Of a stretch of DNA of 64,000 bases, positions 8,579-24,218 are shown in pieces (positions within the stretch are counted from its first letter, which is position 1; each line of letters opens with the position of its first letter). The notes beneath the pieces were generated by a model that was given only the letters and a program-made list of their open reading frames with translations, was not told the origin of the DNA and searched no databases. The DNA comes from Rubrobacter taiwanensis (GTDB lineage Bacteria; Actinomycetota; Rubrobacteria; Rubrobacterales; Rubrobacteraceae). The stretch covers positions 1-64,000 of the forward strand of contig NZ_SKBU01000014.1 of the NCBI RefSeq assembly GCF_004337705.1, in the 5' to 3' direction. The translations under genes were made by a program, and so were the position numbers.

Positions 8579-9252
8579 GGGATGCGGCTCCCCTGCAGGG
8601 CGCGCAGGACGTCGAGCCCCTGCCGGGCGCGGTGAGCGAAGCCGGAGGGGCCTCTGCCGGTGGGGCGGTGCGAGAGCGGGAGGGGTATCTCTAGGGGCTG
8701 GATCCCGGCGGCGAGGAGGTCCAGGGTCATGCCGACCTCGACCCCAAAGCCCGGAGCGAGTCCGGGGAGGAGGTCGAGCGCCCCGGCGAGCAGCGCCCGC
8801 TGGCCGGAGAGCGGCTCCCGCGGGGCGAAGCCGGTGCGGCGCGAGATCTCGCACCGGGCCAGCCTCTTCACCAGCCCGAAACCCGCCCCCTCCGCCGGCG
8901 GGAAGGCGGCCACGGCAACGGGAGCCCCATAGAGACCGTCCAGCAAGGGCCTCAGGCGGGCAGCAGAAGCCCCCAAATCGGCGTCGGCGAGCAGCACGGC
9001 GTCCGGGTTGTGACGGCGGGCGTGGACGATGCCGGAGAGGAGCGCACGGCCCTTGTCCCCCCGGCGACGCGGCGGTAGCCGGACGACCTCCGCGCCGAAC
9101 GCCGCAGCTACCTCGGATGTATTATCCATACTTCCGTCGTCTACGACCACGACATGCTGCACGGCGGGGAGGGTTACGAGGGCGCTCAGGGTCTCCGGCA
9201 GTCGGGGGGCTTCGTTACGGGCTGGAACCACTGCGACGGCGGGGGTGGTCAA
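8572..9252 (-). CDS. Family 2 glycosyltransferase
   Basis: The 226-residue protein has the GT-A fold signature: AVAVVPARNEAPRLPETL at the N-terminus, VVVVDDGSMDNTSEVA for nucleotide binding, and LLADADLGASAARL with the metal-binding DxD-like motif. It has no clear transmembrane helix, so it probably works at the inner face of the membrane with the adjacent MraY-like transferase. It starts with TTG at 9252, 3 bp after the mctB-like gene. Donor and acceptor are unknown; the neighbours suggest an envelope glycan. Confidence 0.85.
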
Positions 9253-9255
9253 TCT

Positions 9256-10104
9256 CTAGCTTGAGGGCTCGGGGAAGGCGCTAGAGGCGGTGGGTTTGAC
9301 TCCGTAGGAGCCTTCGGCGGCTCCGGAGGCCAGCAGGACGAGTGCGGCGCGGCCTGCCGGCATATCGGCGTTATCCACCGAGGAGATCCCGGCGCTCTGG
9401 TAGAGCGGGATCTCGGAGTTCGCGGCGAACGAGGATTCGGCCGCCACGACCCTGATTCCGGCGTCCTCCCAGGCGCCGAACATCTCCTCCTGGGCCGTGG
9501 CCAGGAAGTCCAGTGCGGGCTCGGCCGCCTCCGGGTCCACCGGCGCTCCGCCGCCGACGAAGACCACGACGTCCGGCAGGCCCTCCGGCCGCGGTCCGCC
9601 CGCGATGACATCCGCGACGTCTTCCAGGGCCCGGATCTCCAGTGTGGAGCCGGCTATCTCCAGTGCGGCGCGGGCGTAGGGCTCGAAGGAGGCGGCGGAG
9701 ATCTGCTCCCGATCGGGCGGTTCCAAGCGGATGACGGGTCCGAGGTCCGCTCCGGCGCTCTGGAGGGTCTCCTGGACCTGCCGGGAGACCTCCTCATCCG
9801 CGTAGGGACCCGCGACGACGGCCACATCCACCCCTTGCAGGCGGCCGGCGACGATCGTCTCCGCCATCCGGTGCGAGATCTCGTCCTGCGCCTCCAGCTG
9901 CGCCCGGAGGGTGGCGATCTCCTGGTCCTTCTCGGCTATGACCTCCTGCTGGTGGCTGAAGCGGTTCTCGATGTCCGCTATCTGCGCCCGGAGCTGCTGG
10001 TCGACCACGCCGCGGTCGGCTATGGCGGTGCCGAGCAGGACCCCTATCGCCAGGGCCAGAAACACGGATATGAGCGAGACGAGGTGGTAGCGGAGGTCCG
10101 GCAT
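9256..10104 (-). CDS. mctB: MctB/SteB-like copper-transporter family protein
   Basis: The 282-residue protein starts MPDLRYHLVSLISVFLALAI, one transmembrane helix of the MctB family (called SteB in corynebacteria), followed by a coiled coil at about residues 35-80 and a globular extracytoplasmic domain with VVVFVGGGAPVD. In M. tuberculosis the homologue sits between the SteA-like gene and pyrG and was linked to copper tolerance. In Corynebacterium SteA and SteB act in septation. The position directly after steA favours the septation role here. Confidence 0.86.
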   Translation of the reverse strand: MPDLRYHLVSLISVFLALAIGVLLGTAIADRGVVDQQLRAQIADIENRFSHQQEVIAEKDQEIATLRAQLEAQDEISHRMAETIVAGRLQGVDVAVVAGPYADEEVSRQVQETLQSAGADLGPVIRLEPPDREQISAASFEPYARAALEIAGSTLEIRALEDVADVIAGGPRPEGLPDVVVFVGGGAPVDPEAAEPALDFLATAQEEMFGAWEDAGIRVVAAESSFAANSEIPLYQSAGISSVDNADMPAGRAALVLLASGAAEGSYGVKPTASSAFPEPSS

Positions 10105-10108
10105 GATC

Positions 10109-11284
10109 TTAGATCCCCAGCACCAGACGCAATTTTATCGCCAGAAGACGGAAGATCTCGGCTATCGGTTCGGAGGCGTAGACGACCGCGGAGAGCGCGA
10201 CCAGCCCGGCCATCACGAGCGCGGCGAGCTGCCCGGAGGAGACCCGCGCCGGGTAGAGCTTGCTCACCCCCTTGGCGTCGACCAGCAGCGAGCCGACCTT
10301 CAGCCGGGTCAGGAAGGTGGAGGAGGCCCCTTTCCTGCCCTTGTCCAGAAACTCCACCAGCCCCACGTGCGTCCCCACCGCCACGATGAGCTCGGCTCCG
10401 CACTGTTCGGCGAGCATGATCGCGATATCCTCCGAGAGTCCGGGGGCCGCGAGCACCTCCGCTTCCTCGATGCCCGCCCGCTTCACCCGTTCCATCCCCG
10501 GCGCGGGGCCGCCCGGGTAGCCGTGCACCAGGACGCGGTCCGCGGCGCGCAGGGCCCTCTCGGAGACCGAATCCATGTCGCCGAAGACGAGGTGCGGCCT
10601 CCACCCGGCCTCCAGCACGGCGTCGGCTCCGCCGTCGACCCCGATGATGAACGGGCGCATGCCCCGGATGTACGGGCCCAGGGCCTGCAGGTCCTGCCGG
10701 TAGTCGTAGCCTCGGACCACAACGAGCACCTGGCGGTCCCGGATCTCGCCCGCCAGCTCGTCCGGAATCTCCAGCGAGGAGAACAGGATGTCCCGCTCCA
10801 GCCGCATGAACTCGACGGTGTTCCGGGCGAAGCTCTCCAGCGCCGCCCCAACCCGCTCCCGGCTCTCGCGGATGGCGCTCTCCGCCTTCCCGACGTCCAG
10901 GTGCTCCCCGGCGGCCACGAGCCGGCCGCCCAGATATACGGCGTCGCCGCGGACCTCGATCTCCTCTCCCGTCTTGATGCGCTCGAAGACCTTCGACCCC
11001 ACGCCGTCCAGCAGGTACACCCCGCCGCGAGCCAGTATCAAGGGGCCCAGATTGGGGTAGAGCCCCGTAGAGGAGCACGCAGCGTTAACCACCACCCGCA
11101 CCCCGGCGGCCACGAGCGATTCGGCCGTGACCCGATCCAGATTCTCGTGATGGATGACCGGGATGTCCTCCGGGGTGAGACGCGGCACGATCTCCTTGGT
11201 CTTCATCCCCAACACCGCCCGGCCGGTGAACCGGACCGGAACGCCCGCCGGTCGCCCGTTCTTCGTGAGGTCGATCCGCCTCAC
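10109..11284 (-). CDS. steA: SteA-like septation protein
   Basis: The 391-residue protein matches SteA: NAACSSTGLYPNLGPLILA in the N-terminal part, then a thiamin-pyrophosphokinase-like region (IGVDGGADAVLEAGWRPHLV followed by GDMDSVSE), and a C-terminal hydrophobic helix (SGQLAALVMAGLVALSAVV) that anchors it in the membrane. In Corynebacterium SteA and SteB influence septum formation and wall-drug sensitivity. It starts with GTG in a 4-bp overlap with recN and is 4 bp upstream of the mctB-like gene. The thiamin-like domain is a fold similarity, not proof of enzyme activity. Confidence 0.87.
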   Translation of the reverse strand: MRRIDLTKNGRPAGVPVRFTGRAVLGMKTKEIVPRLTPEDIPVIHHENLDRVTAESLVAAGVRVVVNAACSSTGLYPNLGPLILARGGVYLLDGVGSKVFERIKTGEEIEVRGDAVYLGGRLVAAGEHLDVGKAESAIRESRERVGAALESFARNTVEFMRLERDILFSSLEIPDELAGEIRDRQVLVVVRGYDYRQDLQALGPYIRGMRPFIIGVDGGADAVLEAGWRPHLVFGDMDSVSERALRAADRVLVHGYPGGPAPGMERVKRAGIEEAEVLAAPGLSEDIAIMLAEQCGAELIVAVGTHVGLVEFLDKGRKGASSTFLTRLKVGSLLVDAKGVSKLYPARVSSGQLAALVMAGLVALSAVVYASEPIAEIFRLLAIKLRLVLGI

Positions 11285-15779: not shown

Positions 15780-16117
15780 GCGACCACCTCCGCCACATGC
15801 ACGTCTACCCGTTCGACCTCGACGCCGGCCTGCTCCCGCAGAGCCCCGGCGACCCGGCGCTGAACCTGACGCGCCACCTCCGGGATGCTGCGGCCGTAAC
15901 GCACGGCTATTGTCACCTTCGGCGCCGCCCCGGCCTCCCGTTCCGGAAGCTCGACGCTCCCCACCAGCCGCCGGCGGGCGAGGATGCCGAGCTCGGAGTC
16001 CTCAACCTGGGAGGCCACGCCCTCCACCTCCCGGGCGGCGAGCGCGGCCAAAAGCCGGAGCGCCTCGTCTCCGATCCGGTACTCTATCCCGGCCGTGTCG
16101 CGCGGCTTTAGGTTCAT
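15776..16117 (-). CDS. Asp23/Gls24 family envelope stress protein
   Basis: The 113-residue protein belongs to the Asp23/Gls24 family ([58 protein letters not shown]). Family members in staphylococci and streptococci sit at the inner face of the membrane and respond to wall or alkaline stress. It overlaps efp and nusB by 4 bp each, a conserved placement. It has no membrane segment of its own. Confidence 0.9.
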
Positions 16118-16671
16118 ACCCGGGTCAGGTACTCGCGGGTGCGGGTGTCCACCCGTACCCTCTCTCCCTCGCTGATGAACAGCGGAACCTGGACGGTAAG
16201 TCCGGTCTCCAGCGTGGCCGGCTTGCTGCCGCCCTGAGCGGTATTGCCCCGGACGCCGGGATCGGTCCGCACGACCTCCAGGTCCACGTGCGCCGGAGGC
16301 TCGACGCTCACGATCTCCCCGTCGGCGAAGAGCAGGCTCACCTCACCACCCTCCACGATGAAGTCGGCGGCCTCGCCCACCACCTCCCTGGGGACCGGGA
16401 TCTGATCGTAGGTCTCCGAATCCATGAAGTACATTAGATCCCCGTCACCGTAGAGAAACTGCATGGGCCGCGACTCGGTGCGGATGTTCTCCACCTTCTC
16501 CCCGGCCCGGAAGGTCTTCTCGATCACCGCCCCGGTGTCCATGTTCCGCAGCCGGGTGCGCACGAAAGCGCCGCCCTTGCCGGGCTTGACGTGCTGGAAG
16601 TACAGTATGATGAATCGTTTGCCATCGACCCTGATGGCCATGCCGTTCTTGAACTGGTTCGTGGATATCAC
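16114..16671 (-). CDS. efp: Translation elongation factor P
   Basis: EF-P relieves ribosome stalling at polyproline stretches. The 185 residues form the three-domain EF-P fold: the N-terminal KOW-like domain with [10 protein letters not shown], whose Lys32 is at the tip that enters the peptidyl-transferase centre, then an OB domain ([17 protein letters not shown]) and a C-terminal OB domain ([19 protein letters not shown]). It starts at GTG 16671, 62 bp after aroQ. Proline-rich proteins in the window, such as the PilP-like one, are plausible clients. Confidence 0.96.
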
Positions 16672-16733: not shown

Positions 16734-17171
16734 TTAACGCAAATCCCACCGGCTTCCAAAGAGCACGTACCGGGCCGCAACCCGGTATCCGAACGGCCCC
16801 ATCCCGGCCACCACGGCGTCCACGGCCGGCGAGATTACCGACCTCCTGCGCCACTCTTCCCGCCGGTAGACGTTGGAGAGGTGCACCTCGACCCTGGGTA
16901 TGGAGAGTATCTCCAGGGCGTCGTGTATGGCGTAGGAGTAGTGAGTCCAGGCCCCCGGGTTGAGTATGAGGCCGGCGGCGTCTGCCGCGGCGTGTATCCT
17001 GCGCACGAACTCCCCCTCTAGGTCCGTCTGGAAGAACTCCCACTCCACATCGGGAAACTCGGAGCGCAGGCCGTCCTCGATCTCCTTCAGGGTGGTCCCG
17101 CCGTAGATCTCGGGCCGCCGGTCGCCCAGCAGCCCCAAATTCACCCCGTTTAACACCACGACCCGGCTCAC
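16734..17171 (-). CDS. aroQ: Type II 3-dehydroquinate dehydratase
   Basis: AroQ dehydrates 3-dehydroquinate to 3-dehydroshikimate. The 145-residue protein has the type II signatures: LNGVNLGLLGDRRPEIYGG with the catalytic Tyr, LILNPGAWTHYSYAIHDAL, and VEVHLSNVYRREEWR with the active-site His. It overlaps the end of aroB by 4 bp and closes the aroC-aroK-aroB-aroQ block. Confidence 0.96.
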   Translation of the reverse strand: MSRVVVLNGVNLGLLGDRRPEIYGGTTLKEIEDGLRSEFPDVEWEFFQTDLEGEFVRRIHAAADAAGLILNPGAWTHYSYAIHDALEILSIPRVEVHLSNVYRREEWRRRSVISPAVDAVVAGMGPFGYRVAARYVLFGSRWDLR

Positions 17172-18232
17172 AGCGACCCGATCACCTCTACCACCTCCGC
17201 ATCCTCCACCCTCTGGTCCCAGACCGGCTCGCCCACACCTTTGAGCAGCACGAAGCGGTGCTCGCCGCTCCGGCGCTTCTTGTCCCGCTTCATCGCCTCC
17301 AGGACGGGTGCGGGCTCCACCTCCGGCGGCCGGGTGGGCAGAGCGGCGGCCTCTAGAAGCCTCCGGTGCTCACCCCGCAGATCCGTCCCGAACCTCCGGC
17401 GCGAGAGCTCAGCCTCGGCCAGCATCCCGACCGCCACGGCCTCCCCGTGCAAAATCCGGTAGCTAGCGGCGGCCTCCAGCGCGTGACCGACGGTGTGGCC
17501 GTAGTTCAGGATCGCGCGCAACCCCTCCTCCCGCTCATCGCGCTCCACCACCGATGCCTTAAAGCGCACGGAGTGCAGGATGAGGGTCTCGAGCGCCGCC
17601 GCCTCCCGCCCCCGCGCCTGCGGGAGGAGTTCCAGGTCCCGGTAGAACCCTCCGCCGCAGAGCAGCCCCATCTTTACCACCTCCGCGAGCCCGCAGGAGA
17701 GCTCGCGGTCCGAGAGGGTCTCCAGCCAGCCCACCTCGGCGATAACCGCCCGCGGCTGCAGGAAGCCGCCGACGAGGTTCTTCCCCTCCGGCAGGTCCAC
17801 CCCCACCTTCCCGCCCACGGAGCTGTCCACCATCGCCAGCAGGGAGGTCGGCAGCTGCACGAGCGAGATGCCGCGCATGTAGGTGTGAGCTATAAACCCG
17901 CCGAGATCTCCTACGACCCCGCCCCCGAGCGCGAAGAGCGTCCCGTCGCGCCCGAGCCCCGTCAGCGCCAGACGCCGCACCACAGCCCCATAGGACGAGA
18001 GGCTCTTGGAGCGTTCGCCGGGCGGCACCTCGATCGTATCCACCACCCGCCAGCCGGCGCCTTCCAGCTCCCCGGCCAGCCTCCCGGCGTGCAGCGGCCC
18101 GACGTTCGAGTCGGTTAGGATGACGCCGGTTGCGGGCTCGAGCGCCTCCGAGACCAGCTCCCCGATGTCCAGCTCCCTACCGACGACGACACGGTAGGGC
18201 GCGCCGGCGGTGACCGTCACTCCCTCAGCCAA
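17168..18232 (-). CDS. aroB: 3-dehydroquinate synthase
   Basis: AroB cyclises DAHP to 3-dehydroquinate, using NAD and a divalent metal. Family landmarks in the 354 residues are VPPGERSKS, LFALGGGVVGDLGGFIA, LPTSLLAMVDSSVGGKVGVD, and AILNYGHTVGHALEA with a metal-binding His. It overlaps aroK by 16 bp and aroQ by 4 bp. Confidence 0.97.
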   Translation of the reverse strand: MAEGVTVTAGAPYRVVVGRELDIGELVSEALEPATGVILTDSNVGPLHAGRLAGELEGAGWRVVDTIEVPPGERSKSLSSYGAVVRRLALTGLGRDGTLFALGGGVVGDLGGFIAHTYMRGISLVQLPTSLLAMVDSSVGGKVGVDLPEGKNLVGGFLQPRAVIAEVGWLETLSDRELSCGLAEVVKMGLLCGGGFYRDLELLPQARGREAAALETLILHSVRFKASVVERDEREEGLRAILNYGHTVGHALEAAASYRILHGEAVAVGMLAEAELSRRRFGTDLRGEHRRLLEAAALPTRPPEVEPAPVLEAMKRDKKRRSGEHRFVLLKGVGEPVWDQRVEDAEVVEVIGSL

Positions 18233-18714
18233 GCCACGATCTCCCGCGCCACGTCTTCCGGCGGGCGCTCGTAGACCTCGACCTGCAGCGCAGCGACCTC
18301 CAGATAGTACGGCAGCCGCTCCGAGTAGCGCCGGGAGAACTCCTCGTAGTCCTCGCCGCGCAGCGGCCGGTCGGTGCCGCGCGTGCGGCGCCAGAGGATC
18401 TCGGTGTCCTCCCAGAGGAAGACGGTGTTCACCTGCGAGAGGAGGCTCCGGTTGCGCGGCTCCTCCACCACCCCGCCCCCGCAGGCGACGACCCGCTCGC
18501 CCCCCAGCATCTTCCCGAGCGCCTCGCTCTCCAGCCGCCGGAAGGCCCGCTCGCCCAGAGAGTCGAAGATCTCGGTGATGGAGAGCCCGGCCCGCTCGGC
18601 GACGACCTCATCCAGATCCACGAACTCCCAGCCGACCTGCCGGGCCACGATCCGGCCGACGGTGCTCTTGCCGCTCCCCATGTACCCGACTATGGCCAGC
18701 GGCCCGCTCTTCAT
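18217..18714 (-). CDS. aroK: Shikimate kinase
   Basis: AroK phosphorylates shikimate. The 165-residue P-loop kinase has GYMGSGKSTVGRIVARQ at residues 10-26, the shikimate-binding FVDLDEVVAERAGLSITEIF, ACGGGVVEEPRN, and a lid region with RPLRGEDYEE. It sits between aroC and aroB, overlapping both. The aroK-aroB pair next to pil genes recalls the pilMNOPQ-aroKB arrangement of diderm bacteria. Confidence 0.96.
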   Translation of the reverse strand: MKSGPLAIVGYMGSGKSTVGRIVARQVGWEFVDLDEVVAERAGLSITEIFDSLGERAFRRLESEALGKMLGGERVVACGGGVVEEPRNRSLLSQVNTVFLWEDTEILWRRTRGTDRPLRGEDYEEFSRRYSERLPYYLEVAALQVEVYERPPEDVAREIVAWLRE

Positions 18715-19859
18715 CTCCCGATCCGCCCCAGGTACGCCTCATACGAGGCCCGGATGTCCGTCATGTTGTCTTGCCCGAACTTCTCCAGGAAGGCCTCGGC
18801 CAGCACGACGGCTACCATAGCCTCCCCGATAACGGCCGCCGCCGGGACGGCGCAGCTGTCCGCCCGCTCCCGGAAGGCGCGGGCCGGCTCCATCGCGGAG
18901 AGGTCCACGGTGCGCAGGGCCCTGGCTATGGTGGAGATCGGCTTCATCGCGGCCGAGATCACGACCGGCTCGCCGTTGGTCATGCCGCCCTCCAGCCCGC
19001 CGAGGCGGTTGCTGGCCCGCGCGAGCCGTCCGTCCTCCAGCAGGATCTCGTCCTGCACCTCGCTGGAGCGGCGGGCGGCGAGCCCGAACCCGAGCCCGAA
19101 GTCCACGCCCTTGATGGCGTTGATGGACATCACGGCCGCCGCGAGCCGCGCATCCAGCTTGTCCCGCCAGTCCACGTACGAGCCGAGCCCCGGGGGACAC
19201 CCCTCCGCCACGACGACGAACTCGCCGCCGAGCGCGTCCCGGGCGTAGCGGGCGGCGTCGATCTCGGCCTTCATCCGCTCCGTGATCTCCGGGTCGGGAC
19301 AGCGCACCTCCGAGGCGTCGGCCTTCGCCGCGTCGCGGACGGCCAGCTCCCTGGGGTAGGCGACGCCCCCAATGCGGTAGACGGCACTGTGGACGGTGAT
19401 CCCGAACTCCCCGAGCAGCTTGCGGGCCACCGCCCCCGCGGCAACCCGCGCCGTGGTCTCGCGGGCGCTGGAGCGCTCCAGAACGTTGCGCAAATCGTCG
19501 TGGGCGTACTTCTGCATCCCGGCCAGGTCGGCGTGTCCGGGCCGGGGGAGCGTGATCTTCTCCGGCGGCCTCTCCACCGGAGCCGGGTTCATCCGCTCCT
19601 CCCAGTTGGCGTAGTCCCGGTTGCGGACGAGCATGGCCACCGGGGAGCCCAGAGTGTAGCCGTGCCGTACCCCGCCCAGAAACTCTACCCGGTCTTGCTC
19701 GATCTTCTGCCGGCCGCCCCGGCCGTAGCCCCGCTGCCGCCGGGCCAGATCCCTGTCTATGTCTTCCGCGAGCAGCCCGAGCCCGGCCGGCACGCCGTGC
19801 ACTATCGCGACCTCGGCCGGGCCGTGCGACTCGCCCGCCGTCGAGAATCCGAACTTCAT
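18711..19859 (-). CDS. aroC: Chorismate synthase
   Basis: AroC makes chorismate from EPSP and needs reduced FMN. The 382-residue protein begins MKFGFSTAGESHG, the family's N-terminal signature, and contains GKLD-type and SARETTARVAAGAVARK motifs and SAMEPARAFRERADSCAVP. The ATG at 19859 overlaps the stop of the PilP-like gene by 4 bp; the frame is open upstream, but that part has no AroC character. Confidence 0.97.
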   Translation of the reverse strand: MKFGFSTAGESHGPAEVAIVHGVPAGLGLLAEDIDRDLARRQRGYGRGGRQKIEQDRVEFLGGVRHGYTLGSPVAMLVRNRDYANWEERMNPAPVERPPEKITLPRPGHADLAGMQKYAHDDLRNVLERSSARETTARVAAGAVARKLLGEFGITVHSAVYRIGGVAYPRELAVRDAAKADASEVRCPDPEITERMKAEIDAARYARDALGGEFVVVAEGCPPGLGSYVDWRDKLDARLAAAVMSINAIKGVDFGLGFGLAARRSSEVQDEILLEDGRLARASNRLGGLEGGMTNGEPVVISAAMKPISTIARALRTVDLSAMEPARAFRERADSCAVPAAAVIGEAMVAVVLAEAFLEKFGQDNMTDIRASYEAYLGRIGR

Positions 19860-20488
19860 CGCTCTCCATCCGAGAAAGTGAATACAACGGTGCGGTCTCC
19901 CCGAGACAGTACCACCACCCTCTCCGCCGTGTCCACCCCGACGACCCGCGCCCCGAACAAACGGGACCCGGCGCCGATCCTCTCCCCGTTCACCTCGACC
20001 CACGACTCGCCGCCGCTGCCGCCGAAGACCACCCGCGAACCCCGGAAGAGGGCCTCCGCATGCTCAAGCGAGTCCGGCGGGGGCAGCGTCCCACCGCTGT
20101 CGTAGAGCCGGTCGTCAGGGACGGGCGGAGCCGGCGGGGGGGTGGCCGGACCGGGCGCGGGTGGAGCGGCAGGATCGGGAGTTGGAGCGGAGCCGAGAGG
20201 ATCGCCGTCATCCTCCGGGACCTCCGGAGGGGCAGTCTCTTCCGGAGGGGCACTCTCTTCCTGCGCGAGCGGTATGAGCTGCCGGAACGGGTCCTTGGCC
20301 TCGTATCTGGAGTAGTCGCGGACGCGCCGGATCTCCACCTCCGGCTCCGGGGCCTGCTGCCGGGGGGCCGGGGAAACCTGCGCCGGAGGGTCCGCCTCCG
20401 GCGGCCGGATCAGAAAGCCGGCGGCGGCCCAGGCCACGACGACCAGGATCAGCAGGGCCGCGACGGGCTGCAGAGCTCTAAGGAGCAT
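19856..20488 (-). CDS. PilP-like type IV pilus inner-membrane protein
   Basis: The 210-residue protein has one N-terminal transmembrane helix (ALQPVAALLILVVVAWAAAG), an EAKDPFRQLIP segment like the DPF motif of PilP/GspC proteins, a long Pro/Ala/Glu-rich linker, and a C-terminal beta domain (SWVEVNGERIGAGSRLFGAR) resembling the PilP homology region. It follows pilM-pilN-pilO, the place of pilP in diderm pilus operons. The ATG at 20488 has GAGGAG four bases upstream; a longer open frame is less likely because it would overlap pilO heavily. In diderms PilP contacts the secretin PilQ, but no pilQ follows here. Confidence 0.72.
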   Translation of the reverse strand: MLLRALQPVAALLILVVVAWAAAGFLIRPPEADPPAQVSPAPRQQAPEPEVEIRRVRDYSRYEAKDPFRQLIPLAQEESAPPEETAPPEVPEDDGDPLGSAPTPDPAAPPAPGPATPPPAPPVPDDRLYDSGGTLPPPDSLEHAEALFRGSRVVFGGSGGESWVEVNGERIGAGSRLFGARVVGVDTAERVVVLSRGDRTVVFTFSDGER

Positions 20489-21119
20489 CGGTCTCCTCCT
20501 CAGCGGGCGGTTCGGGCGCCGGCGTCTCCTCTCCGGGGCGGGCGGCGGGCTGGACGTAGATCTCGGCATTCACCTCCACCGTAAGCAGGCGTTCGGCCGC
20601 AGGAACGGCGGCATACTGTTCGGCGGCCGGGTCCGCCGGAGCGTAGCGCAGCTCCCTGACGGTAACCAGCCGGCTGAGGTTCCGGAGCCGGAAGAGGAAG
20701 TCCTGCATCTGTTCGTAGGTTCCCTCGAAAGACATCTCCACCGGTATTCTAGAATAGTTGACCCCTTCGGCGGAGAAGACCTCCGGGTCCCCGGGGGCCA
20801 CCGAGAGCTGCAGCACGCCCGCCGCCTGAGCGACCTCCTCTATCTGCACCAGCAGGGTCGGCATCTCATCCTGCTCCGGCACCCGGCGGGAGAGCTCCAG
20901 CAGCCGGCGCTCTATCTGCGGAGCGTTCTCCCGCACGGCCTCCAGCTCCGCAACCTCGGCGTTCAGGCTCTGCAGCCGGGCCTCTCTGCCCTCCCGTTCG
21001 GCGCGGACGGTCTCGAGCTCGGAGAGCAACGGGGAGAGCAGCACGAACCAGAAGGCCACGGCCACCAGCACCAGTCCCAGGATTCCGAGCGCGAGCACGT
21101 TGCGGGTGCGGGAGTCCAC
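20478..21119 (-). CDS. pilO: Type IV pilus assembly protein PilO
   Basis: The 213-residue protein has a short cytoplasmic tail, one transmembrane helix (VLALGILGLVLVAVAFWFVL, residues 8-27), a coiled coil to about residue 80, and a ferredoxin-like domain (IPVEMSFEGTYEQMQDFLFR) typical of PilO. PilO pairs with PilN to form the alignment subcomplex of the type IV pilus. The C-terminus is Pro/Glu rich. It is 3 bp from pilN and overlaps the PilP-like gene by 11 bp. Confidence 0.86.
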   Translation of the reverse strand: MDSRTRNVLALGILGLVLVAVAFWFVLLSPLLSELETVRAEREGREARLQSLNAEVAELEAVRENAPQIERRLLELSRRVPEQDEMPTLLVQIEEVAQAAGVLQLSVAPGDPEVFSAEGVNYSRIPVEMSFEGTYEQMQDFLFRLRNLSRLVTVRELRYAPADPAAEQYAAVPAAERLLTVEVNAEIYVQPAARPGEETPAPEPPAEEETDAP

Positions 21120-21122
21120 TGC

Positions 21123-21785
21123 CTAAGGCTCCTCCGGCTCGACTCCCAGCGGCACCCTCTCCCCGTCTTCCCCGACGACGGTGATAAGCTCGGAGGAGAC
21201 CTCGAAGGCTATGGCCGGCTCCACATAGGTCTCGCGGTCCAGTTCCGCGCTCACCAACCGGCTGTTCGCCAGGTAGGGCAGGCCGTTCATCCGCACTATG
21301 AAGTCCGCCACGTTCTGGTACTCGGGCAGCGTTATGCCGGTGAACGTCACGGCGCCCGGGGGCTCCAGGATCTGGCCGGCGGGGGCCTGCAGGTTCACCG
21401 GCGAAGCCTGCGCGGTCAGGCCGTTGAGGGCCGCGCTCTGGGGTATGGCGAAGGCGAGCCCCTGCAAGAACTCGTCCCACGGAAACCGGGTACGCCAGAC
21501 ACCGTCGGCGACCTGCTCCTTGGCCGCCAGCCGCTCCTGCAGGTCGCGGTAGGGCTCGAGCTCGGCCAGCCGGCGCTCCTGGCGGGCTATGTCCTGGTCA
21601 AGGCGCATAACGGCCTCCCGTTCGCCTGCGAGCCTGAGAAGGAAGAAGAGGTAGAGGGCGACCATGCAGATGAGCATCAACACCCCGGCGATGAGCAGCA
21701 GCTCCACCGGGCGGCCCCGGAGGGCCGGAGGAGCGCCGGCCAGCCTCCCGCGCTCCTCCGGCGGCAGAAGGTTTATGCGCCTCAT
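21123..21785 (-). CDS. pilN: Type IV pilus assembly protein PilN
   Basis: The 220 residues begin MRRINLLPPEERGR, the INLLP motif by which PilN's cytoplasmic tail docks into PilM. A transmembrane helix (LLLIAGVLMLICMVALYLFF) follows at about 30-50, then a coiled coil and a periplasmic-type alpha/beta domain (VTFTGITLPEYQNVADFIVR). It overlaps pilM by 4 bp. Confidence 0.9.
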   Translation of the reverse strand: MRRINLLPPEERGRLAGAPPALRGRPVELLLIAGVLMLICMVALYLFFLLRLAGEREAVMRLDQDIARQERRLAELEPYRDLQERLAAKEQVADGVWRTRFPWDEFLQGLAFAIPQSAALNGLTAQASPVNLQAPAGQILEPPGAVTFTGITLPEYQNVADFIVRMNGLPYLANSRLVSAELDRETYVEPAIAFEVSSELITVVGEDGERVPLGVEPEEP

Positions 21786-22852
21786 GCTTCCTCAAACGCA
21801 AGGCCCATCGCCACCGACAACACCGGCTCCATAGCGCGCAGATCCTCGTCGGAGACGTTGGACCCGTTCTGCTCGATCTTCTCCAGAGGCCTTCCCCTGT
21901 GAACCGGAATGCCGAGAACCCCCTCCAGATATCTCTCGAAGCCCGGTATCATGGACCCCTCGCCCGAGACGAAACCCCGATCTACTTCGCTGGCGAAGGG
22001 CTGCTGGTTATGATAATCGATCGAGCGCCGCACGTCTTCGGCGAGGAGCTGCACGGCCTCCTCAAGCCCCTCCCGCACCCCGCGCCGGCCGGCGGGCTGC
22101 TCCGTGGTCTCTTCCGGATCTCCCGCCAGGTCGAGGTCGAAGACGCGCTCCTCGGCCTCTTCGGCGGAGATGCCGGCAGCCTCCGCGGCCGCCGCGAGGA
22201 ATGACTCAGCGCCGCCGGGGATGAAGCGGGTCACGGTAGGCGCAGCGCCCTGGGAGATAACCAGGCTCGTGGTCTCGGCCGAGACATCCAGGAGCAGCGT
22301 GGCGCCCTCGTCGTCGAAGAGGCTCGGTGGCAGCATCGAGCGCAGCAGGCAGAGCGACTTGACATCCACCCCCGCGGGCCGCAGACCGGCGGCCCTGACC
22401 GCCGAGCTGAAGGCGCTCACCATCTCCCGGTGCGCAGCGACGAGCAGGATGCGGTCCAGCTCCTCATCCGGGGACGGGCCGAGCACCACGTAGTCCAGAA
22501 CGGTCTCGTCTACCGGCATGGGTATATGGTCCTGAGCCTCGAAGCGGATCGCACCCTGCAGGTCCTTCTCCTCCATGCGGGGGAGGTTGATGAGCCGCAC
22601 CACCACCCGGTTGTTCGCAACCCCCAGGTAGACGCTCCTGCTCCCGAAGGAGTGGGTCCCCCAGAACTCCCTCAGCTCCGAGGCCAGCAGCTCCGCGTCC
22701 GCAACCTCGCCCCCGGCGATGGCCTCCCGGGGCAACCGGCGATACCCGACGTGATGCAGCGTGTAAGCCCCGCGCCCCTGCGAGACCTCCACGGCCTTGA
22801 GCGAACCGTGGTCTATGTCCAGCCCGATGCTCCGGGATCTGAAGAGCCTCAA
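21782..22852 (-). CDS. pilM: Type IV pilus assembly protein PilM
   Basis: PilM is an actin/FtsA-like cytoplasmic ATPase-fold protein that links PilN to the pilus motor. The 356 residues show GLDIDHGSLKAVEVSQGRG at the N-terminus (phosphate 1 loop), EAQDHIPMPVDETVLDYVVL, LLLDVSAETTSLVISQG (phosphate 2 loop) and a C-terminal GLAFEEA. It overlaps pilD and pilN by 4 bp each. Confidence 0.92.
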   Translation of the reverse strand: MRLFRSRSIGLDIDHGSLKAVEVSQGRGAYTLHHVGYRRLPREAIAGGEVADAELLASELREFWGTHSFGSRSVYLGVANNRVVVRLINLPRMEEKDLQGAIRFEAQDHIPMPVDETVLDYVVLGPSPDEELDRILLVAAHREMVSAFSSAVRAAGLRPAGVDVKSLCLLRSMLPPSLFDDEGATLLLDVSAETTSLVISQGAAPTVTRFIPGGAESFLAAAAEAAGISAEEAEERVFDLDLAGDPEETTEQPAGRRGVREGLEEAVQLLAEDVRRSIDYHNQQPFASEVDRGFVSGEGSMIPGFERYLEGVLGIPVHRGRPLEKIEQNGSNVSDEDLRAMEPVLSVAMGLAFEEA

Positions 22853-23604
22853 CTCCCGCCTCCCCAGAGCGAGTCAATGTAGGCGGCCCAGATCTCCTCC
22901 CCCGCGAAGAGCGTTACGATCGCTCCCAGCGCCATGAACACCCCGAACGGGAGCGGGGTTCTGCGGCCGGCCCGCCCGAGAGCCATGAGCACCCCGCCGG
23001 AGATGGCGCCGGCCAGCGCGGCCAGGAACAGAGCCAGGAAGGCGTAGAGGCCGAGGAAGGCCCCGAGCAGGGCCGCGAACTTCACATCCCCCATCCCCAT
23101 GCCGGCCGGGTAGGCCACCGCGAGCGCCAGCAGCGCACCGGAAGCCGCCCCCGCCCCCGCGGGATAGACCCACCAGCCCCCGGGATCGGCCAGCAGCGAG
23201 AGCGCGAGCCCGAGCGCCGCACCGGGCAGCGTAAGGGCATTGGGGAGCAGCTTGTGCTCCAGATCTATGCCGGCCAGCGCCACGAGCAGCAGGATGAAGA
23301 CGAGAGCCCGCAGCAGCTCCGGCCCGAAACCGAAACGGAGCACCGCCAGCAGAAAGAGAACCGCGGTCAGCAGCTCGACCACCGGATAGCGGAGCGATAT
23401 GCCCGCCCCGCAGTGCCTGCACCTGCCCTTCAGGATCAGGTACGAGATGAGCGGAACGTTGTCCGCCGCAGAGATGGGATGCCGACACGCCGGACAGCGG
23501 GATGCGGGGAGAACGAGGGACTCTCCCCGGGGCAGGCGATGGATGACCACGTTCAGGAAGCTGCCCAGGATCAGCCCGACCGCCGCCGCTGCCGCAGCGA
23601 GCAC
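22849..23604 (-). CDS. pilD: Prepilin peptidase
   Basis: PilD cleaves and usually N-methylates type IV prepilins. The 251-residue polytopic membrane protein has GSFLNVVIHRLPRGES, a zinc-binding pair of CPAC and CRHC motifs in the first loop, and the two catalytic aspartates in GIDLEHKLLPNALTLPG and GMGMGDVKFAALLG. The tetracysteine domain indicates the bifunctional peptidase/methyltransferase form. No pilin gene is in the window, so substrates lie elsewhere. Confidence 0.94.
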   Translation of the reverse strand: MLAAAAAAVGLILGSFLNVVIHRLPRGESLVLPASRCPACRHPISAADNVPLISYLILKGRCRHCGAGISLRYPVVELLTAVLFLLAVLRFGFGPELLRALVFILLLVALAGIDLEHKLLPNALTLPGAALGLALSLLADPGGWWVYPAGAGAASGALLALAVAYPAGMGMGDVKFAALLGAFLGLYAFLALFLAALAGAISGGVLMALGRAGRRTPLPFGVFMALGAIVTLFAGEEIWAAYIDSLWGGGS

Positions 23605-24218
23605 TACTCTCCTTCTCCGACTATGTTGGTGAGCGGTGGCACTCGCAGATCGTCCCGCACCTCGGCCTTGCGGCCGACGGTGGAGTTCGCCCCCAGATGC
23701 ACCCGCGCCCCGACGTGCGACCGCACCCCGACCACCGCCCCGCCCGAGACCCAGGCCCCGGCCCCCACGACCGAATCCCGCTCCACAACCGCTCCCGGTC
23801 CCACGTGGCAGTGGCTGCCGAGCGCCGCGTCCGTATGTACCACGGCGCCCGCACAGATCACCGCGCCGTCCCCGACGGCCGCCTCGAGCGAAACGTGCGC
23901 CGCGGGATGTACCGCGCTTACGAACCGGGCCCCCGCCCCACGCAGCGAGTTGGCCACCCGCATCCGGGCCCGATTCTCCGTTATGGCCACCACGACGTAG
24001 AGCTCCTCAACCGAGAGCATGCTCTTGAGCATCCCCACATCCCCGAGAACCGGGACGCCCTTTATCTCCTCCGGAAGCACCGCATGCGCATCGTCGTAGA
24101 AGCCGACGACCAACTCCCGGTAGCCGCAGGCAGTCAGGATGTCGAGAACGACACGCCCGTAGCCCCCGGCCCCGACTATGACTATCCTGACACCGGCCTC
24201 CCGTTCTATCTCCTGCAC
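23604..24218 (-). CDS. NeuD/PglD-like protein with left-handed beta-helix, catalytic His apparently missing
   Basis: The 204-residue protein has an N-terminal Rossmann-like sugar-nucleotide domain (RIVIVGAGGYGRVVLDIL) and a C-terminal run of hexapeptide repeats (AHVSLEAAVGDGAVICAGAV onward), the layout of NeuD/PglD acyltransferases that modify amino sugars of glycans. The family's catalytic motif around HDC with a following HI.PG is replaced here by VVERDSVVGAGAWVSGG, so acetyl transfer by the usual mechanism is doubtful. The GTG start at 24218 is the only start codon available and lies inside a hairpin. It abuts pilD, which hints at pilin glycan modification, but that is inference. Confidence 0.72.
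   Translation of the reverse strand: MQEIEREAGVRIVIVGAGGYGRVVLDILTACGYRELVVGFYDDAHAVLPEEIKGVPVLGDVGMLKSMLSVEELYVVVAITENRARMRVANSLRGAGARFVSAVHPAAHVSLEAAVGDGAVICAGAVVHTDAALGSHCHVGPGAVVERDSVVGAGAWVSGGAVVGVRSHVGARVHLGANSTVGRKAEVRDDLRVPPLTNIVGEGE

Follow-up and report, generated by a model that had tools for sequence, protein, structure and literature searches.

The pil-aro locus and pilus genes of Rubrobacter taiwanensis

We analysed a 64,000-nt stretch of contig NZ_SKBU01000014.1 from Rubrobacter taiwanensis (hereafter the window, to whose full length all coordinates refer). On its minus strand, genes for the assembly of a type IVa pilus run directly into aro genes. The slot between pilO and aroC is occupied by a gene for a divergent homologue of PilP, with no gene for the secretin PilQ. 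The string comprised pilD, encoding the prepilin peptidase (22849..23604; PF06750 1.8e-36, PF01478 5.4e-16); pilM, encoding the cytoplasmic actin-like pilus assembly protein (21782..22852; TIGR01175 182 bits, cut-off 133), which has a TTG start and overlaps pilD; pilN and pilO, encoding inner-membrane assembly proteins (21123..21785 and 20478..21119, respectively); and pilP (19856..20488; 210 aa). These are followed by aroC, encoding chorismate synthase (18711..19859; PF01264 1.9e-116), aroK, encoding shikimate kinase (18217..18714; PF01202 2.7e-38), aroB, encoding 3-dehydroquinate synthase (17168..18232; PF01761, PF24621), and aroQ, encoding a type II 3-dehydroquinase (16734..17171; PF01220 2.2e-47). 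PilO was identified by PF04350 (8.1e-19), and PilN by a below-cut-off match to PF05137 (0.004) together with the place of its gene between pilM and pilO; pilN overlaps pilM as ATGA. The likely start of pilP is the ATG at 20488, inside the end of pilO, and its stop shares one ATGA with the start of aroC (ATG at 19859). A first-pass annotation of this DNA had described pilD-pilMNO and a PilP-like gene in line with aro genes, lacking pilQ, and a 4-bp overlap between the PilP-like gene and aroC. Both descriptions held, with all genes present on the minus strand and matched to their families.

The same annotation had opened the interval 16734-24218 with a pilus gene. The first gene there, neuD (23604..24218, minus strand), instead encodes a NeuD/PglD-type acetyltransferase (PF17836 5.4e-18, TIGR03570 140 bits), which is not a pilus protein; it is a regular neighbour in loci of the host's family, sitting between fmt and pilD or pilM. 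The complete minus-strand order is priA-def-fmt, neuD-pilD-pilM-pilN-pilO-pilP-aroC-aroK-aroB-aroQ, efp, an Asp23-type gene, nusB and ispA, and from neuD through aroQ consecutive genes overlap or almost touch. The elongation factor P gene efp (16114..16671; TIGR00038 3.5e-75) is a conserved neighbour of the string and was found at the same place in most relatives.

Diderm comparison sequences came from E. coli, Acinetobacter and one unannotated Aeromonas record. The hofMNOPQ-aroK-aroB cluster of E. coli and the pilMNOPQ-aroK-aroB cluster of Acinetobacter have the same order as the window, with pilQ in the gap, which agrees with the earlier description of a diderm pil-aro order minus pilQ. Unlike the gammaproteobacterial cluster, the window has no pilQ, aroC precedes aroK-aroB, aroQ comes after them, pilD lies in front and the host is a monoderm. 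By published description, the Thermus PilMNOWQ cluster is also similar, having after pilO a gene for a linker protein rich in glycine and proline whose C-terminal domain resembles the homology region (HR); it differs in having pilQ behind this slot and in its diderm host (PMC13039148).

The first-pass annotation had made its reading depend on there being no pilQ elsewhere in the genome. The host genome (3,035,128 bp in 57 contigs; 99.69% complete) contained no secretin domain (PF00263), using a search that recovered secretins in six control genomes. The other pilus genes, which that annotation had suggested seeking elsewhere, were found on other contigs. Contig C6 carries, at 74-88 kb, pilB (with an MshEN domain), pilT, pilC, a WhiG-type sigma gene, prepilin-like genes, a response regulator and a sensor kinase, and two of the six prepilin-like genes in the genome lie on contig C9. 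This completes a monoderm type IVa pilus set (PilB, PilC, PilT, PilD, PilM, PilN, PilO and pilins) without secretin or outer-membrane machinery. It resembles the secretin-free systems of Streptococcus sanguinis and Clostridium, which likewise have PilM-PilN-PilO, PilB, PilC, PilT, PilD and pilins; PilP, reported to be absent from those pili (PMC6916266), is kept in the host. An extra T2SSE-type ATPase gene (419 aa; L013:8698-9957, plus strand), divergent from pilT-pilC, was present in the C6 cluster. Type IV pili in Rubrobacter are under a WhiG-RsiG switch (PMC8325347), in keeping with the WhiG-type sigma gene within the pilB-pilin cluster of C6; the main text of that paper makes no mention of pilM or aro linkage. 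WhiG-type promoter-like sites with one mismatch were seen in or near the C6 pilus cluster (L013:13615 and L014:585, both minus strand), and none with up to two mismatches lay ahead of the window pil-aro operon.

A divergent PilP homologue between pilO and aroC

The slot protein of the window had no Pfam match at E<=1. A profile built from slot proteins of deep-branching genomes outside the family scored it at 24.8 bits, whereas none of 552 other open reading frames (ORFs) of the window scored above 10.9 bits and none of 2000 shuffles above 6.5 bits, and in a search of the whole host genome it was matched with E 2.1e-5. The same profile matched the slot gene in many family genomes (E 1e-5 to 6e-11), with matches spanning only about positions 20-130 of 200, i.e. 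ahead of the beta domain. At the N-terminus slot proteins have either a transmembrane segment or a lipobox; they also share a [DN][PI]F motif and then a low-complexity linker, and those outside the family have, in addition, a C-terminal domain in which a YGD is conserved close to the end. In window PilP these features correspond to a membrane anchor (20408..20476, minus strand), assigned from sequence and predicted as a helix in relative L092, and to the motif KDPFRQL (residues 65-71; 20276..20296, minus strand), whose phenylalanine, F68, was invariant among 48 aligned members. The motif is the counterpart of diderm RDPFxP, which reads RDPFKPP in E. coli HofP. Gammaproteobacterial PilP has the same architecture of N-terminal anchor, DPF motif, linker and C-terminal HR domain. 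Lipobox-like motifs were seen in relatives such as L066, L146 and L152.

Structure prediction extended this likeness to the C-terminal domain of relatives. PDB sequence profile searches returned only marginal PilP and GspC matches, and PF04351 matched relative L098 at 1e-4, spanning both the motif and the HR domain. The slot protein of L092 (Aquicultor-type) was predicted to form a membrane helix that leads through a disordered linker to a beta domain with a predicted local distance difference test (pLDDT) value of 97. Its best PDB match was the GspD-bound GspC HR (3oss; TM 0.82 by target length, prob 1.00), followed by PilP structures of three species, the PulC HR and GspB. On the strength of the profile match, the shared DPF motif, the HR fold of L092 and the fixed position, the slot protein is a divergent PilP homologue, by profile and in relatives also by fold, and not a canonical PilP lipoprotein. 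An unrelated membrane protein resembling PilP by chance would fit the lack of an above-cut-off Pfam match in any genome tested, but it is very improbable given a profile score well above shuffles and other ORFs, a DPF motif common with HofP, a relative whose HR fold matches PilP and GspC structures, and a constant gene position. The first-pass annotation's PilP-like protein without its known partner was thus borne out, there being no secretin.

Within the family, the C-terminal domain was one-sided in its occurrence. In roughly thirty relatives with a readable slot gene the protein stops after the low-complexity linker, mostly in a short LF(D/N/E)SGG-type tail, with no domain-sized space before aroC. 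In window PilP the corresponding tail, LYDSGGTLPPP, is followed by about 70 more residues (beta domain at 19877..20032, minus strand), whose AlphaFold2 model has six strands, at pLDDT about 91 and ordered as an HR should be. Amongst 350,542 PDB chains the best match was the GspB HR (4wfw; prob 0.91, E 0.39), and the modelled window C-terminus is a probable HR domain. The comparison with PilP and GspC proposed by the first-pass annotation therefore came out as expected for relative L092, and for the window itself only as this match to GspB. In a concatenated tree of PilM, PilO, AroC, AroB and AroK, the window and a clade of the 33 remaining family members were sister groups (bootstrap 94). Because outgroups carry the C-terminal domain, one loss after the split of the window lineage accounts for the family pattern; if the window tail were not an HR, the domain loss would be older and the tail an unrelated gain. 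In part of the family (L052, L054, L062, L170, L171, L173-L175) acidic repeats resembling thrombospondin type 3 (DSDGDGLTDRRE...DPxNPDTDGDGIPDG) occur in the linker of PilP and probably bind calcium.

The pil-aro order and secretins across Actinomycetota

PilM was found in 209/396 sampled phylum genomes. We compared 40 loci and a further 80 named loci from a GTDB species scan, amongst which pilM-pilO-aroC were in line in 108, the window included, with a slot protein scored in 107; in the sole remaining locus (L064) the aroC reading frame had been taken too long. The in-line set contained 71 named GTDB loci, from Aquicultor, Coriobacteriia, Anaerosomatales, Geothermincola, Solincola and others, and a frequent full order was pilB-pilT-pilC-pilD-pilM-pilN-pilO-pilP-aroC-aroK-aroB-aroQ-efp. 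The gap between pilO and aroC was <1.3 kb in 99/108 loci; of the nine wider gaps, two or three (L069, L081) had been given a wrong slot ORF by the automatic choice, and a PilP-like ORF was visible beside pilO. None of the 108 loci contained a secretin-like ORF. The HR domain, with its conserved GD and hydrophobic strand pattern, was recognised in 93/112 slot proteins. The pil-aro order without pilQ is therefore the common state of early-branching Actinomycetota and not a local oddity, which overturns the suggestion that pil genes were fused into an aro operon in this lineage. Its recurrence in over 100 independent loci excludes a chance gene order and likewise rules out contamination or misassembly as its source.

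Trees of PilM, PilO, AroC and AroB were congruent (Mantel r 0.57-0.80; maximum of 500 permutations 0.13), and each recovered the family. This agreement, which the first-pass annotation had proposed as a check on joint inheritance, reflects a shared vertical history; unlinked vertical inheritance would give the same result. Two unusual loci were seen: L079 (G263 contig C26) has two adjacent pilM-pilO pairs, of which one alone is in line with aro genes, and L187 (Miltoncostaea oceani plasmid, 8947-10982) has a solitary pilM-pilO pair with no pilus ATPase or aro genes near.

No secretin was detected in the host and 40 close relatives (0/41). Across the phylum, secretin matches occurred in 2/296 genomes, both on short contigs: L016 (G225 contig C11) and L017 (G200 contig C128). 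L016 is a contig end carrying pilQ-aroK-aroB. As its AroB shares 64% identity with Acinetobacter and 42-49% with Actinomycetota, it was rejected as a genuine secretin of the phylum and is likely a proteobacterial contaminant. L017 belongs to a genome with 5% contamination, and both contigs are probably foreign DNA. An N-domain protein as a hidden partner of the HR was also considered and rejected, since a PF03958 search matched just L016 and L017 plus marginal hits. Omp85 was found in 0/296 phylum genomes, with seven positive controls.

Role of PilP and origin of the gene order

In diderms, PilP contacts PilN-PilO, probably by its unstructured N-terminal region, and the N0 domain of PilQ by its C-terminal domain (PMC3441751), and it stabilises PilN-PilO (PMC6916266). 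We consider it probable that the locus encodes the inner-membrane half of a type IVa pilus machine in which a divergent PilP is the partner of PilN-PilO, with pilQ lost and the HR domain later lost in relatives. PilD and PilM-PilN-PilO-PilP would make up this half, co-encoded with aroC-aroK-aroB-aroQ, and the pilus itself would be built by PilB, PilC, PilT and pilins encoded on other contigs. PilP would anchor in the membrane and bind and stabilise the PilN-PilO heterodimer via its N-terminal DPF segment, and its flexible linker would extend into the cell wall with no secretin available for docking. A core role at PilN-PilO fits because the anchor and DPF segment are kept everywhere, whereas the secretin-binding module was lost in relatives. 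Historically, an ancestral pilMNOPQ-aro cluster would have lost pilQ along with the outer membrane, before the divergence of early-branching Actinomycetota. Loss of the C-terminal domain would have come much later and only once, in the rest of the family after the window lineage had split off, whilst the anchor, DPF motif and linker would have been kept.

Several observations weigh against this account. Window PilP lacks a lipobox, having a transmembrane segment instead, and the PF04351 gathering cut-off was reached in 0/60 genomes (best member 22.7 vs 25.6 bits), which is also why annotation misses these proteins. The AlphaFold2 model of window PilP was built from an alignment that presumes the relationship, and the Foldseek match of its C-terminus to the GspB HR had the E value of 0.39 given above. 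A hidden Markov model of HR domains from other classes scored the window C-terminus at 1.0 bit, less than shuffles, so that its HR homology is argued from structure and position. S. sanguinis pili form although PilP is reported absent there (PMC6916266). Finally, the HR domain is kept through most of a secretin-free phylum, which is hard to explain if secretin binding is its sole role.

This last point favours a second partner. The HR may bind something other than a secretin, such as peptidoglycan or a wall protein, which would make monoderm PilP an adaptor seating the pilus machine in the wall. The window lineage would then be the last sampled member of its family to keep the HR, beside relatives that deleted it, these Rubrobacter-like relatives having dropped it after altering their wall attachment. 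The recognition of the HR, with its conserved GD and strand pattern, in most slot proteins without any secretin speaks for such a partner, as does the related diderm GspB, which bears a peptidoglycan-binding C-terminal extension beside its HR (PMC9239104). The partner is, however, only putative, and GspB contacts peptidoglycan via the extension rather than the HR, so we hold this idea tentatively, at somewhat less than even chances. It would supplement a role at PilN-PilO, and the two are not mutually exclusive. Rather unlikely, in our judgement, is a cluster that was secretin-free from the outset, in which PilP originally worked with PilN-PilO and diderm lineages later gained pilQ by insertion between pilP and the aro genes. 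Such a history would suit the pilQ-less order as the common state of the phylum, and it is disputed whether the last ancestor of bacteria had one membrane or two (PMC8871954). Against it stand the secretin binding of every well-studied HR domain (PMC9239104, PMC3441751), surveys that infer several secretin losses among monoderms (PMC6668835), and the Firmicutes, which have similar clusters with and without pilQ and in which PilQ is found in the diderm members (PMC5007114). Loss of the secretin rather than its gain is thus likely, albeit unrooted in these data. Of the first-pass proposal of an ancestral pil-aro cluster with a deleted secretin, the ancient order and the absence of the secretin stand, and its deletion is a plausible scenario.

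PilP has been stated to be absent from monoderms, and their pili serve as a simple assembly model, the premise being that the lack of a secretin explains the lack of PilP (PMC6916266). We found no report of PilP in Actinomycetota in the open-access literature. In the sequences compared here PilP, so far unannotated, is instead retained across much of a secretin-free phylum, and so must have a secretin-independent role. The family offers a natural experiment, with one lineage carrying and about thirty lacking the putative secretin-binding domain, and the conserved pil-aro linkage with its empty pilQ slot bears on how monoderms lost, or never had, an outer membrane.

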